Source of the DNA: Andreesenia angusta
GTDB lineage: Bacteria; Bacillota; Clostridia; Tissierellales; Gottschalkiaceae
Reading direction: 5' to 3'
DNA: 64,000 nucleotides
Assembly (NCBI GenBank): GCA_030537835.1
Contig: JAUNVB010000002.1
Location: 1-64,000, forward strand
Shown here: positions 13,212-59,695 of the stretch, piece after piece
Numbering within the stretch: position 1 is the first letter of the stretch
Layout of the letters: the number at the start of each line of letters is the position of its first letter
The notes under the pieces: generated by a model
Seen by the model: the letters and a program-made list of their open reading frames with translations, nothing else
Databases searched by the model: none
Told to the model about the DNA's origin: nothing
Made by a program: the position numbers and the translations under genes

Positions 13212-13228
13212 AAGAATATAGAATTATC

Positions 13229-13335
13229 TTTAATCTGGTCCAGAGAGGCCAGAAAGGTATTAAAATGAATATTTTTTGATGAGAGAAATATATGCCTTTC
13301 TGTGCCCATGCCCAGGAGGGCTTTTTTTAAAAAAG
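13229..13335 (+). promoter_or_regulatory. PyrR-binding attenuator of carAB
   Basis: The RNA has the PyrR-binding hairpin: lower stem TTAAT/ATTAA, upper stem CTGG/CCAG and the conserved loop TCCAGAGAGG (13239-13248). CAGAAAGG (13250-13257) can alternatively pair with CCTTTCTG (13294-13302), and GCCC/GGGC followed by seven T residues (to 13328) forms the terminator. When UMP-bound PyrR stabilises the binding hairpin, termination is favoured. The hairpin matches the Bacillus pyr attenuators; the exact terminator stem is my reading. Confidence 0.85.
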
Positions 13336-13371: not shown

Positions 13372-14430
13372 ATGAGTGGAATAATCTACTTAGAAGATGG
13401 AACAATTTACAAAGGCGAAGGCTTTGGTGCTAAAGGTACTATAGTAGGAGAGCTAGATTTCAATACTAGCATGATAGGATATCAAGAGGTATTAGAAGAC
13501 TCATCTAATGCTGGACTGATATTAAATATGACTTATCCTTGGATAGGAAATTATGGAGTTAAGGATAGTGGTAAAAAAGCGTATGCAAAAGGTATTATAG
13601 TGAAAGCGGTAACCGAAGAGCCATCGAATTATGAATGTAATAAAACACTTATAGAGTATATGAAAGAGAGAGGGATTGTCGGCATAAAAGATGTTGACAC
13701 AAGAGCTATTACTAGAAAGATAAGAAGAGATAATGTTATGAAATGTGTAATAACTAATGAAGATCTTTCTGAAGAGGAACTTAAAGAAAGAATAAAAGAA
13801 GATATAGAATATAATTTAATTGAGGAATGTAGTATAAAAGAAATTGAAAAGATAGAAGGAAATGATTTAAATATAGGTATTTTAGACCTTGGACAAAAAG
13901 ATAGAGTTTTAGAAGTTCTAGAAGGAAAAAATCTTGGCTTTACATTATTTCCTTATAATACGACTAAAAAAGAAATAGATAAGGAAAAAGTAGACGCTAT
14001 AATAGTTACAAATGGACCAGGACTTGCATCTGAAATGGTAGATACGATAGAAACAGTTAAAGAGCTAGCAAAAGACTATGCGATTTTTGGAATTTCTTTA
14101 GGTCATCAAATCATTTCAATCGCATTAGGTGCAAAGGTGAGAAAAATGACTTATGGACATAGAGGTTCAAACCATGGGGTCTACGATTACAATAAGAATA
14201 GAGCATTTATAGTTCCACAGAATCATGGATATGTTATAGATGAAAACAGTCTAGCAGGACTCGATTTGAAAGTATCACATATTAATTTAAATGATTCTAC
14301 AATAGAAGGAATAGAGCATAATAGTCTTAATATCCAATCAATACAATTTGAACTTGAAAAGGAATCTGATTTAGCTAATACATCTTATATATTAAATAGC
14401 TTTATAGATTCTATTAGGGAGGGAAAATAA
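13372..14430 (+). CDS. carA: Carbamoyl-phosphate synthase small subunit, glutaminase residues lost
   Basis: CarA normally hydrolyses glutamine and passes ammonia to CarB. The 352-residue protein has the N-terminal CPSase small-chain domain (1-130) and a class I glutamine amidotransferase domain. The nucleophile motif GICLGHQ reads GISLGHQ, so the catalytic Cys is Ser242 (codon TCT, 14095-14097). In the usual QYHPE motif the sequence is QFELE, so the catalytic His is replaced by Glu327, while Glu329 stays. The protein is otherwise complete, with FGHRG-like and QNHGY motifs. It should be inactive as a glutaminase but still able to bind CarB. It is directly abutted by carB. Confidence 0.93.
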   Translation: MSGIIYLEDGTIYKGEGFGAKGTIVGELDFNTSMIGYQEVLEDSSNAGLILNMTYPWIGNYGVKDSGKKAYAKGIIVKAVTEEPSNYECNKTLIEYMKERGIVGIKDVDTRAITRKIRRDNVMKCVITNEDLSEEELKERIKEDIEYNLIEECSIKEIEKIEGNDLNIGILDLGQKDRVLEVLEGKNLGFTLFPYNTTKKEIDKEKVDAIIVTNGPGLASEMVDTIETVKELAKDYAIFGISLGHQIISIALGAKVRKMTYGHRGSNHGVYDYNKNRAFIVPQNHGYVIDENSLAGLDLKVSHINLNDSTIEGIEHNSLNIQSIQFELEKESDLANTSYILNSFIDSIREGK

Positions 14431-17400
14431 ATGCCATTAAATAAATCGTTGAAATCTGTTTTAATAATAGGATCGGGTCCAATAGTAATTGGGCAAGCTG
14501 CAGAATTTGATTATTCTGGAACCCAAGCTTGTAAATCGATTAAAGAAGAAGGAATAAGAACTATACTTATAAACAGTAACCCTGCTACAATAATGACAGA
14601 TATGAATGTGGCGGATAAAGTTTATATAGAACCTATAACTATTGATACAGTAGAAAAAATAATTGAAAAAGAAAGACCAGATGGACTCTTAGCTGGATTC
14701 GGAGGGCAGACGGCACTCAATTTAGCTATGAATCTGAAAGATGAGGGTATATTAGACAAATACAATGTAAAGCTTTTAGGAGTTAAGCCGGATACGATTA
14801 AGAAGGCAGAGGATAGAGAAGCTTTTAAAGATTTGATGGAAGATATAAATGAACCAACAGCGAAATCTATTATTTCCACAAAGATAGAAGAATGTAAAGA
14901 ATTCGTAAAAGAAAATGGGTATCCAGTCATAATAAGACCAGCATATACATTAGGTGGAACTGGTGGTGGAACTGCACATAATGAAGAGGAATTAGAAGAA
15001 ATATGTGCTTCAGGATTCCATAATTCACCAATAGGACAGATATTATTAGAACAATCTGTAGCAGGATGGAAAGAAGTTGAATTTGAAGTTATGAGAGATG
15101 CAAAAGGAAATTCCATGGTTATATGTAGTATGGAAAACCTTGATCCTGTAGGAGTGCATACGGGTGATAGTGTAGTTGTTGCACCAGCTCAAACACTAGC
15201 TTCGCACGAATATAATATGCTTAGAACATCGGCGTTAAAAATACTTGAAAACTTAGATTTAGAAGGTGGATGTAATATTCAATTTGCATTAGATTATAAG
15301 AGTGATGACTATATAGTTATAGAGGTTAATCCAAGGGTTAGTCGTTCATCAGCACTAGCTTCTAAGGCAGCAGGATATCCAATAGCTAAGATAGCTTCTA
15401 AGATAGCAATAGGATATACATTAGATGAGTTGAAAAATTATGTTACTAAGACTTCTTCAGCTTATTTTGAACCTTCTATAGACTATACAGTTATAAAATA
15501 TCCAAAATGGGCTTTTGATAAATTTGCTGGAGCAGCTAGAAAGCTAGGAACTCAGATGAAAGCTACAGGAGAGGTTATGTCAATAGCTAGAACATTTGAG
15601 TCAGCTATGATGAAAGCTCTTACTTCACTAGAATCTAAAAATCAAGGAATGAGAGTCGAACATTTAGAAGGGCTTTCTAATGATGAATTACTAGAGAAGA
15701 TAGAACAATGCGATGATGAAAGAATGATGGCTATAGCTCAGGCAATAAGACAAGGTGTAGAAGTAGATAAGATAAATGATATAACTAAGATAGATAAACT
15801 GTTTTTAAATGGTATAAAGAATATAGTCAATATGGAAGAAAAATTAAAAACAGAAGAACTCAATAGTGAATTATTATTAAAAGCGAAAAAGATGGGGATT
15901 GCCGATAAAGATATAGCAATCTTAAAAGGTGTAGAGACAGATGAGATTACCAAGCTTAGAAAAGAATACGGTATAAAACCTGTTTACAAAATGGTTGATA
16001 CTTGTGCAGCAGAATTTGATGCACATACACCTTATTACTACTCTTCATTTGAAGATGAGGATGAAAATGAAGTCGATGAATCTAAAGAAAGTATAATAGT
16101 TTTAGGTTCAGGCCCTATAAGAATAGGACAAGGGGTTGAATTTGATTACTGCTGTGTACATGGTGTCTGGGCGATAAAAGAAGCAGGTTATGAATCTATT
16201 ATAATAAATAACAATCCAGAAACTGTGAGTACAGACTTTGATACTTCTGATAAACTTTATTTTGAATCTCTATTTATAGAAGATGTTATGTCTATAATAG
16301 AGAAAGAAAAACCTAAAGGTGTAGTAGTTCAATTTGGAGGGCAGACTTCTATTAATCTAGCTGAAAAATTACACAGAAGAGGAATAAATATATTAGGAAC
16401 ATCGTATGACTCTATAGATCTTGCGGAAGATAGAGAAAAATTTGGTAAATTGCTTTCGGATTTAAACATACCATCGCCTTCTGGTGGAGGAGTTACGAAT
16501 CTAAAAGAAGGACTTGAGACTGCAAATAAATTAGGATACCCTGTAATAGTTAGACCTTCATATGTAATAGGTGGAAGAGCTATGCAGGTAGTGTACGATG
16601 ATGAGGTTTTAAAAACGTATATGACAGAGGCAGTTACAGCATCCAAAACACATCCGGTTTTAATAGATAAATACGTTAGAGGAACGGAGATAGAAGTAGA
16701 TGCTATATGTGATGGTGAGGATATTTTAATACCGGGAATAATGGAACATGTTGAAAGAACAGGAGTGCATTCAGGAGATAGTATAACTGTATATCCTACA
16801 ATAACATTGCCTCAAGATGTAAAGGATAAATTATATGAATATACTAAGAGCATAGCTGTTGAGCTAAAGACGAAAGGACTTATTAATATCCAATACGTAT
16901 ACGATGGCAAAGATATATATGTGATAGAGGTAAATCCAAGAGCATCTAGGACAGTTCCAATACTTTCTAAAATTACAGGAACTCCAATGGTTAAAATAGC
17001 TGTTGAAATAATGTTAGGTAAGAAACTTTCAGAAATGGAATATGGTGTAGGACTAATACCGCCAAGAGATTTCTCAGCCATAAAGATACCTGTATTTTCA
17101 ACGGAGAAATTAGGAGATGTAGATGTCTATTTAGGGCCTGAAATGAAATCGACAGGAGAAGTTCTAGGGATGGATAATGATTTTGAAAATGCAGTTTATA
17201 AAGCATTTAAAGCAACGAATACTCAAATGCCATTATCTGGAGGCGTATACGTTGCTATAAAAGATGTCGATAAAGAAGAAGATTCCTTAGAAATAATAAA
17301 AGGTTATAAGGATATGGGCTTTAGAATCTATGCTTCTATGGGTACTAGCAAGTTTTTAAACGAAAATGGCGTTGAAGCAGAAGCGTTAGCACCAGATGAA

Positions 17401-17628
17401 ATAGAAAATAGAATTGCAAATGACGATGTAAAAATAATAATAAATACACCAACTAAAGGAAATGACAAGAGAAGAAGAGGATTTAAGCTTAGAAGAAAAG
17501 GCTCAGAGCATAGAATACCAGTCTTCACTTGTATAGATACAGCAGAGCTTTTCTTAAAAGCTCTAAAAATAAAAGCTTCTGATAAAGAAATCGAATATAG
17601 AGAATTAAAATCTTACTTTAATAAATAG
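14431..17628 (+). CDS. carB: Carbamoyl-phosphate synthase large subunit
   Basis: CarB makes carbamoyl phosphate from bicarbonate, ammonia and two ATP for pyrimidine and arginine synthesis. The 1065-residue protein has two homologous ATP-grasp halves (about residues 1-400 and 550-935), each opening with a GSGPI motif (IGSGPIVIGQAAEFDYSG and LGSGPIRIGQGVEFDYC). An oligomerisation region lies between them and an MGS-like allosteric domain covers the last 130 residues. It starts directly after the carA stop with GGAGGG inside carA. With the dead CarA glutaminase, free ammonia is the expected nitrogen source. Expression is shared with carA under the PyrR attenuator. Confidence 0.97.
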   Translation: MPLNKSLKSVLIIGSGPIVIGQAAEFDYSGTQACKSIKEEGIRTILINSNPATIMTDMNVADKVYIEPITIDTVEKIIEKERPDGLLAGFGGQTALNLAMNLKDEGILDKYNVKLLGVKPDTIKKAEDREAFKDLMEDINEPTAKSIISTKIEECKEFVKENGYPVIIRPAYTLGGTGGGTAHNEEELEEICASGFHNSPIGQILLEQSVAGWKEVEFEVMRDAKGNSMVICSMENLDPVGVHTGDSVVVAPAQTLASHEYNMLRTSALKILENLDLEGGCNIQFALDYKSDDYIVIEVNPRVSRSSALASKAAGYPIAKIASKIAIGYTLDELKNYVTKTSSAYFEPSIDYTVIKYPKWAFDKFAGAARKLGTQMKATGEVMSIARTFESAMMKALTSLESKNQGMRVEHLEGLSNDELLEKIEQCDDERMMAIAQAIRQGVEVDKINDITKIDKLFLNGIKNIVNMEEKLKTEELNSELLLKAKKMGIADKDIAILKGVETDEITKLRKEYGIKPVYKMVDTCAAEFDAHTPYYYSSFEDEDENEVDESKESIIVLGSGPIRIGQGVEFDYCCVHGVWAIKEAGYESIIINNNPETVSTDFDTSDKLYFESLFIEDVMSIIEKEKPKGVVVQFGGQTSINLAEKLHRRGINILGTSYDSIDLAEDREKFGKLLSDLNIPSPSGGGVTNLKEGLETANKLGYPVIVRPSYVIGGRAMQVVYDDEVLKTYMTEAVTASKTHPVLIDKYVRGTEIEVDAICDGEDILIPGIMEHVERTGVHSGDSITVYPTITLPQDVKDKLYEYTKSIAVELKTKGLINIQYVYDGKDIYVIEVNPRASRTVPILSKITGTPMVKIAVEIMLGKKLSEMEYGVGLIPPRDFSAIKIPVFSTEKLGDVDVYLGPEMKSTGEVLGMDNDFENAVYKAFKATNTQMPLSGGVYVAIKDVDKEEDSLEIIKGYKDMGFRIYASMGTSKFLNENGVEAEALAPDEIENRIANDDVKIIINTPTKGNDKRRRGFKLRRKGSEHRIPVFTCIDTAELFLKALKIKASDKEIEYRELKSYFNK

Positions 17629-42926: not shown

Positions 42927-44138
42927 TTTAAGGAGGATTAATAATGAGTAAGGAAAAATTTGAAAGAAGTAAACCGCATGTTAATATAGGAACAATAGGT
43001 CACGTTGACCATGGAAAGACAACATTAACAGCAGCAATAACAACAGTATTACATGACAGATACGGAACAGGACAAGACGTAGCATATGATAATATAGACA
43101 AGGCACCAGAGGAGAGAGAAAGAGGAATAACAATATCAACATCACATGTTGAATATGAGACTCCAAATAGACACTATGCACACGTTGACTGTCCAGGACA
43201 CGCTGACTATGTAAAGAATATGATAACAGGAGCAGCGCAAATGGACGGAGCAATCTTAGTATGTTCAGCAGCAGATGGTCCAATGCCACAGACAAGAGAG
43301 CATATATTACTATCAAGACAGGTAGGAGTACCACAAATAGTAGTATTCTTAAATAAAGCAGATATGGTAGATGACGAAGAATTAATCGAATTAGTAGAGA
43401 TGGAAGTAAGAGAATTACTAAGCGAATATGAATTCGATGGAGATGATACACCAATCGTAGTAGGATCAGCATTAAAAGCAATAGAAGATCCATCAAGCGA
43501 GTGGGGAGATAAGATAATCGAATTAATGGAAGCAGTAGATGAGACAATTCCAACACCAGAGAGAGATACAGATAAGCCATTCCTAATGCCGGTAGAGGAT
43601 GTATTCTCAATCACAGGAAGAGGAACAGTTGCAACAGGAAGAGTAGAAAGAGGAGTACTAAAGGTACAAGATAATGTTGAGATAGTAGGACTAGCAGACA
43701 AAGCAAGAACAGTAGTATGTACAGGAATTGAGATGTTCAGAAAGTTATTAGACGAAGCACAAGCTGGAGATAATATCGGAGCATTATTAAGAGGGATTCA
43801 AAGAGATGAAGTAGAAAGAGGACAAGTATTAGCGGCACCAGGAACAATAACACCGCATACAAAGTTCAAGGGAGAAGTATATGTATTGACAAAAGAAGAG
43901 GGTGGAAGACATACACCATTCTTTGATGGATATAGACCACAATTCTACTTCAGAACGACAGACGTTACAGGTTCAATAAAGCTAGAAGAAGGCGTAGAGA
44001 TGGTAATGCCTGGAGATAATGCTACATTTGAAATAGAGTTAATTACACCAATCGCAATGGAAAAAGGACTTAAATTTGCGATAAGAGAAGGTGGAAGAAC
44101 AGTAGGAGCAGGAGTAGTTACTGAAATATTAGGATAAT
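42927..44138 (+). repeat. Duplicated tuf block, copy 1
   Basis: This block, from TTTAAGGAGG before tuf to the base after its stop, appears base-for-base identical to 58484-59695 on the same strand, 15,557 bp downstream. Identity stops abruptly on both sides, as expected from gene conversion between two tuf genes. Confidence 0.9.
42944..44137 (+). CDS. tuf: Elongation factor Tu, copy 1
   Basis: EF-Tu delivers aminoacyl-tRNA to the ribosome with GTP. The 397-residue protein has G1 GHVDHGKTT (residues 17-25), the switch I region near RGITIS, G3 DCPGHADY and G4 NKADM, followed by two beta-barrel domains. It is identical to the copy at 58501. AAGGAGG stands 7 bases before the ATG. It follows tRNA-Thr in one transcription unit and ends in a strong terminator, separating it from rpmG. 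The codons are strongly biased towards A-ending forms. Confidence 0.98.
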
Positions 44139-46591: not shown

Positions 46592-46611
46592 GTTTTTTGT
46601 TAAAAGAGAAT

Positions 46612-46714
46612 ACTTTCCGAAGACAGTAGGTGTCTAAAGACTTAAATATCCTACCGAGGGTTTTACAATAGATCAGAATATCTAGCCTTCGTATGTCTTT
46701 ACGAAGGCTTTTAT
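46612..46714 (+). ncRNA. Ribosomal protein L10 leader
   Basis: The leader shows the L10(L12)4-binding fold: GTAGG (46626-46630) pairs with CCTAC (46650-46654), enclosing GTCT/AGAC, and is flanked by CCGAAGAC and CCGAGGG as in Bacillus L10 leaders. AGCCTTCGT (46684-46692) and ACGAAGGCT (46701-46709) then form a terminator-like stem with a short T-run. Excess L10 is expected to promote termination. The fold is by eye. Confidence 0.85.
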
Positions 46715-46761
46715 ATATTATCGAAAAGTCAGACAGGAAAGATTCACAGGGAGGTGACATT

Positions 46762-58483: not shown

Positions 58484-59695
58484 TTTAAGGAGGATTAATA
58501 ATGAGTAAGGAAAAATTTGAAAGAAGTAAACCGCATGTTAATATAGGAACAATAGGTCACGTTGACCATGGAAAGACAACATTAACAGCAGCAATAACAA
58601 CAGTATTACATGACAGATACGGAACAGGACAAGACGTAGCATATGATAATATAGACAAGGCACCAGAGGAGAGAGAAAGAGGAATAACAATATCAACATC
58701 ACATGTTGAATATGAGACTCCAAATAGACACTATGCACACGTTGACTGTCCAGGACACGCTGACTATGTAAAGAATATGATAACAGGAGCAGCGCAAATG
58801 GACGGAGCAATCTTAGTATGTTCAGCAGCAGATGGTCCAATGCCACAGACAAGAGAGCATATATTACTATCAAGACAGGTAGGAGTACCACAAATAGTAG
58901 TATTCTTAAATAAAGCAGATATGGTAGATGACGAAGAATTAATCGAATTAGTAGAGATGGAAGTAAGAGAATTACTAAGCGAATATGAATTCGATGGAGA
59001 TGATACACCAATCGTAGTAGGATCAGCATTAAAAGCAATAGAAGATCCATCAAGCGAGTGGGGAGATAAGATAATCGAATTAATGGAAGCAGTAGATGAG
59101 ACAATTCCAACACCAGAGAGAGATACAGATAAGCCATTCCTAATGCCGGTAGAGGATGTATTCTCAATCACAGGAAGAGGAACAGTTGCAACAGGAAGAG
59201 TAGAAAGAGGAGTACTAAAGGTACAAGATAATGTTGAGATAGTAGGACTAGCAGACAAAGCAAGAACAGTAGTATGTACAGGAATTGAGATGTTCAGAAA
59301 GTTATTAGACGAAGCACAAGCTGGAGATAATATCGGAGCATTATTAAGAGGGATTCAAAGAGATGAAGTAGAAAGAGGACAAGTATTAGCGGCACCAGGA
59401 ACAATAACACCGCATACAAAGTTCAAGGGAGAAGTATATGTATTGACAAAAGAAGAGGGTGGAAGACATACACCATTCTTTGATGGATATAGACCACAAT
59501 TCTACTTCAGAACGACAGACGTTACAGGTTCAATAAAGCTAGAAGAAGGCGTAGAGATGGTAATGCCTGGAGATAATGCTACATTTGAAATAGAGTTAAT
59601 TACACCAATCGCAATGGAAAAAGGACTTAAATTTGCGATAAGAGAAGGTGGAAGAACAGTAGGAGCAGGAGTAGTTACTGAAATATTAGGATAAT
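58484..59695 (+). repeat. Duplicated tuf block, copy 2
   Basis: This is the partner of the block at 42927-44138 in direct orientation, including the shared ribosome-binding site. The flanks are unrelated. Confidence 0.9.
58501..59694 (+). CDS. tuf: Elongation factor Tu, copy 2
   Basis: This second gene for the same 397-residue EF-Tu appears identical in DNA and protein to the copy at 42944. It is last in the rpsL-rpsG-fusA-tuf operon, the ancestral tuf position, and has the same AAGGAGG ribosome-binding site. Gene conversion is the simplest reason for the identity. It ends at a strong terminator, so the S10 operon is transcribed separately. Confidence 0.98.

Follow-up and report, generated by a model that had tools for sequence, protein, structure and literature searches.

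Carbamoyl phosphate synthetases and their nitrogen donors

ATP-dependent amidotransferases are generally considered to take their nitrogen from glutamine in vivo, with NAD synthetase as the exception (PMC3376133). In a survey from the same work (Table 1), which tallies genes rather than catalytic residues, glutaminase-free forms are listed neither for CarAB, with 600 genomes covered, nor for GMP synthetase, with 730 (PMC3376133). Among the carbamoyl phosphate synthetases (CPSases), the bacterial glutamine-dependent CarAB (CPS II; E. coli, PDB 1a9x/1c30) is among the described systems closest to the one considered here, being alike in subunit architecture, gene order, and the active sites of CarB. 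Vertebrate CPS I (CPS1) is a single fused NAG-dependent polypeptide that takes free ammonia as its donor and retains an inactive glutaminase domain in which the catalytic Cys has become Ser; this enzyme appears to have another entry for ammonia, and normal activity with external ammonia is seen in E. coli CPSase variants whose glutamine tunnel has been blocked or perforated (PMC4655335). The CPS III of Alcolapia changed independently from glutamine to ammonia as its donor; it keeps the catalytic triad and has lost one glutamine-binding residue (PMC7657897). The single-domain (type N) NAD synthetase is likewise an ammonia-using enzyme of the amidotransferase type without glutaminase activity, its lack of a glutaminase being proposed as ancestral (PMC3376133), and the archaeal carbamate-kinase-like enzyme of Pyrococcus makes carbamoyl phosphate from ammonia with an amino-acid-kinase fold unrelated to CarAB (PMC6022934). 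We found no report of a bacterial glutaminase-dead CarA in the open-access literature, subscription papers being outside the search.

The carAB locus and the glutaminase site of CarA

The locus lies in a stretch of DNA of 64,000 nucleotides, the whole of which is called the window. Here, carA (13372..14430, + strand; 352 aa and a stop codon) is preceded by a PyrR-binding leader RNA, an attenuator (13223..13328, + strand; Rfam RF00515, 60.3 bits against a gathering threshold of 54, E 8.5e-6), in a form of control shared with the pyr genes of Gram-positive bacteria. It is followed by carB, coding for the large subunit (14431..17628, + strand; 1065 aa; TIGR01369, 1523.7 bits), which begins immediately after the carA stop codon and has an open frame, the two being separate genes and not fused. 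CarA is full length by its match to NCBIfam TIGR01368 (342.9 bits, cut-off 307.35) and shows the Pfam CPSase_sm_chain (13372..13755, + strand) and GATase domains; with both domains present and carB adjoining, its membership of the family is established by homology. All the catalytic and tunnel residues that were checked in CarB are retained. These matches bear out the original prediction of a full-length, in-frame carA placed next to an intact carB under PyrR control. The NCBI name of TIGR01368 is “glutamine-hydrolyzing carbamoyl-phosphate synthase small subunit,” and because the window CarA exceeds the cut-off, an automatic pipeline would annotate it as a glutaminase. Elsewhere, the window carries an ordinary L10 ribosomal protein leader RNA (46599-46724, RF00557) and an ordinary gene duplication in the form of two identical copies, about 1.2 kb each, of the EF-Tu gene (42927-44138 and 58484-59695).

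The residues of the CarA active site do not agree with such an annotation. The nucleophile motif reads GISLGHQ, with Ser242 (TCT, 14095..14097, + strand) in the place of Cys269 of E. coli CarA, and the second motif reads QFELE, in which Glu327-Leu328-Glu329 (14350..14358, + strand) put a Glu (GAA, 14350-14352) at the position of His353 and retain the third triad residue, Glu355, as Glu329 (GAA, 14356-14358). Both losses, and the retained Glu, had been read from the window beforehand, and the codons and the alignment with E. coli CarA confirm them. Among the 35 intact CarA proteins aligned from the order, none departs from C269 or H353 (35/35 each), and P358, G359, and P360 are likewise invariant (35/35 each, with G359 at 126/126 in a wider set); these three form the ammonia-tunnel loop of E. 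coli CarA and are replaced in the window by Ser332-Asp333-Leu334 (14365..14373, + strand). In the E. coli enzyme, G359 is part of the tunnel wall, and a G359F mutant reportedly opens the tunnel. Thus, neither the Cys-His-Glu triad nor the tunnel loop with its invariant Gly, both expected of CPS II, is present. The CPS I feature of a catalytic Cys lost within a retained GATase domain is met, and the parallel drawn earlier with the Cys-to-Ser change of CPS1 was right (PMC4655335); in contrast to that fused polypeptide, the window enzyme has two subunits and combines the change with a His-to-Glu replacement and a rewritten tunnel loop, and its use of ammonia is inferred. It also differs from Alcolapia CPS III in its broken triad and from type N NAD synthetase in that its glutaminase is present but dead.

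Further resolution comes from relatives of the window genome (G000), namely, the sole congener examined (G001) and two sister genera of the same family (G002 and G003). The CarA of the congener, with carB adjoining, reads GIALGHQ and QFELE, whereas those of the sister genera read GICLGHQ and QFHPE. Given the QFELE motif and the missing Cys common to the congeners and the intact state of the sister genera, the simplest reading of these sequences is that a single loss preceded the split of the two species. In a tree of the CarA proteins of the order, the congeneric pair is nested among intact versions (support 100/96) on a long stem (0.77). A sequencing error or a pseudogene is ruled out by the open frames and by the presence of the loss in the congener, and the earlier view that carA is not a decaying pseudogene holds. 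The same comparison bears on the idea that CarA retains a weak glutaminase activity by means of Ser242 with Glu327/Glu329. Ser does serve as the nucleophile in other hydrolases; however, the congener has Ala at this position, and the C269S version of the E. coli small subunit reportedly has no glutaminase activity, leaving this as the most improbable of the explanations that we considered. A chain carrying GISLGHQ is present in PDB 1c30/1c3o.

Within the genus, divergence has been faster in the glutaminase domain than in either the N-terminal domain or CarB: the identities between the congeners are 56% for GATase, 68% for the N-terminal domain, and 81% for CarB, as against 74, 78, and 81%, respectively, for the intact pair of sister genera. 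Against this background stands the hairpin IQSIQFELExESDLxNTSYxLNxF, which is identical at 20/24 positions between the congeners versus 207/352 for CarA overall (hypergeometric p 0.008). As it is more conserved than the rest of the protein, the rewritten hairpin seems to be maintained by selection in this altered state.

Carbamoyl phosphate and glutamine use in the genome

Of the window genome, 1,521,521 of 1,522,647 bases were read in stretches, with five small contigs (11.8 kb) masked. A second CarA, which the original prediction had raised as a point to settle, was not found in this 1.52-Mb genome, the masked 11.8 kb not being excluded; the second-best match was rejected as a TrpG-like protein. 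A carbamate kinase was sought with E. coli YbcF as the query, which retrieved only argB and noise, with the same 11.8 kb not excluded. The genes pyrB-I-C-F-K-D-E form one operon and argF lies with argD, B, J, and C in another cluster, and the pyrimidine and arginine pathways, both present, require carbamoyl phosphate. On the side of glutamine, the genome encodes glutamine synthetase, an NADP-glutamate dehydrogenase, TrpG, HisH, GlmS, and AsnB. The presence of the last four rules out a general loss of glutamine use, and as TrpG and HisH retain their Cys and His, the loss of the active site is specific to CarA among the glutamine users compared.

The loss of the CarA active site, with the other glutamine users intact, is most simply explained by a CPSase using free ammonia. 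As both consumer pathways are present and no carbamate kinase was found in the sequence read, CarAB most likely works in this way. We consider it highly probable that this CarAB is a two-subunit CPSase fed by free ammonia, with CarA as a glutaminase-dead partner whose role is structural and perhaps also regulatory. The observations comprise the residue losses and their presence in both congeners, an intact CarB and intact consumer pathways, the lack of any other CarA in the sequence read, and the recurrence described below; the ammonia donor, its entry route, and the role of CarA are inferred. In such an enzyme, CarA, with neither nucleophile nor base, would no longer hydrolyze glutamine, and ammonia from solution would enter CarB, where it would react with carboxy-phosphate to give carbamate, which would then be phosphorylated. 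The resulting carbamoyl phosphate would go to the pyrimidine and arginine pathways, with PyrR exerting control by attenuation. CarA would remain as a structural, and possibly regulatory, partner, probably because CarB is built on it. The comparative evidence therefore supports the original proposal of an ammonia-dependent CPSase with a noncatalytic CarA, the enzyme activity itself being an inference. The suggested physiology of an amino-acid-fermenting anaerobe is likewise conjectural, with only glutamate dehydrogenase and glutamine synthetase bearing on it among the genes checked. Against the proposal stand the availability of glutamine, with glutamine synthetase and other glutamine amidotransferases remaining; the absence of any biochemistry; and the masked 11.8 kb, in which a carbamate kinase or another carA could lie.

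According to a different explanation, carAB is on its way out and carbamoyl phosphate comes from a carbamate kinase or an arginine deiminase route. The patchy distribution of CarA, which is present in only 55 of the 249 genomes of the order and missing from the majority, and its fast evolution in the genus, as seen in the long stem, could be read in this way. However, both genes are full length and have kept the PyrR leader, CarB has remained conserved between the congeners with its catalytic residues in place, and the consumer pathways persist with no carbamate kinase found in the sequence read; we accordingly regard the impending loss of carAB as very unlikely.

Recurrent loss of the CarA nucleophile and other probable ammonia-type enzymes

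The loss in the genus is not isolated. In a second family of the same order (f4), CarA is present in 18/130 genomes, and all 18 lack the Cys and have Gly instead; in two of these (G006 and G023), the dead carA and carB lie beside pyrB, pyrK, and pyrD. Across 170 CarA proteins sampled from the order and the class, a nonrandom set in that some were chosen for their low scores, the Cys is absent in 44 (21 in the order and 23/114 outside it), its position being taken by Gly (37 proteins), Ser (3), Ala (2), Asp (1), or Glu (1). The 126 proteins with the Cys keep S47, K202, H353, E355, G359, and P360 in 125 to 126 cases each, as against 18, 29, 10, 18, 25, and 12, respectively, of the 44 without it. 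Loss of the Cys is thus accompanied by erosion of the whole glutamine site and the tunnel loop. In trees built without the motif columns, parsimony requires 21 changes with FastTree, at least 11 of them forced by well-supported branches, and 22 with IQ-TREE when the four longest rows are left out, with a minimum of 12 so forced. In each of six pairs of dead and intact sisters (L235/L231, L315/L289, L255/L314, L329/L298, L332/L306, and L354/L336), the branch of the dead CarA is the longer one. As an open carB adjoins 41/43 of the other dead carA genes, these are not random pseudogenes, and the subunit is retained with CarB after its chemistry is lost. A possible convergence between the genus and f4 (T37I, Y48N, and P245A) was suggestive but set aside because the sites involved are too few, and two of them, T37 and Y48, are more variable in the wider survey.

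This survey also bears on what the dead subunit might still do. The window CarA retains the glutamine-binding shell (S47, K202, G241, G243, Q273, N311, and G313 in E. coli numbering) while its catalytic residues are lost, and a purely structural subunit would not need such a shell, which speaks against the ammonia reading as stated above. Together with the conservation of the hairpin in its new form, this could point to CarA as a sensor that binds glutamine, or another ligand, without hydrolyzing it and so tunes an ammonia-run CarB. On the other hand, the neighbors of S47 (T37, Y48, and Q51) are altered in the window CarA, and the shell erodes in dead CarA proteins generally, as seen above for S47 and K202, suggesting that binding is not generally needed. 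We view a sensor role as unlikely, if less so than the impending loss of carAB or a residual glutaminase, and retain the reading of CarA as a noncatalytic partner of an ammonia-fed CarB.

More generally, we think it likely, with less assurance than for the single locus, that across the class the CarA glutaminase has been shut off a dozen or more times with the subunit kept, that ammonia-fed CPSases are common yet annotated as glutamine hydrolyzing, and that in the lineage of the window genome this belongs to a broader shift in nucleotide synthesis toward free ammonia. CPS I-type chemistry is known, but its independent and repeated attainment by a two-subunit bacterial enzyme is apparently unreported in the open-access literature. 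If dead CarA proteins are common, nitrogen flow would be misrepresented in the annotation of many anaerobes and in models of their metabolism, and pyrimidine and arginine synthesis in such bacteria would depend on ambient ammonia. The transition from CPS II to a CPS I-type enzyme would also be available in at least a dozen natural replicates, from which one could learn how a channeled enzyme comes to admit ammonia openly and why a subunit persists once it is dead.

Neither this recurrence nor the rewritten PGP loop was part of the original prediction, and the same is true of a GMP synthetase without a glutaminase domain. In the window genome (G000:C9:94-1044; L111/L087), the congener (L086), and one sister genus (G002; L085), this enzyme consists of an ATP-pyrophosphatase domain alone (317-330 aa), and the class-I GATases found in these three genomes include no separate glutaminase for GMP synthetase; the other sister genus (G003) has the normal fused enzyme. 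GMP synthetases of 316-330 aa recur across the order, including in a closed genome (G040), a separate glutaminase not being excluded. CTP synthase (PyrG, PF06418) was also not found in the same three near-complete genomes, with 11.8 kb masked in that of the window, and G003 again has one. As E. coli queries did not find PurF and PurL in the window genome, de novo purine synthesis is likely absent from it, as judged from these searches. Finally, its NAD synthase is of the short form, which elsewhere uses ammonia (PMC3376133).
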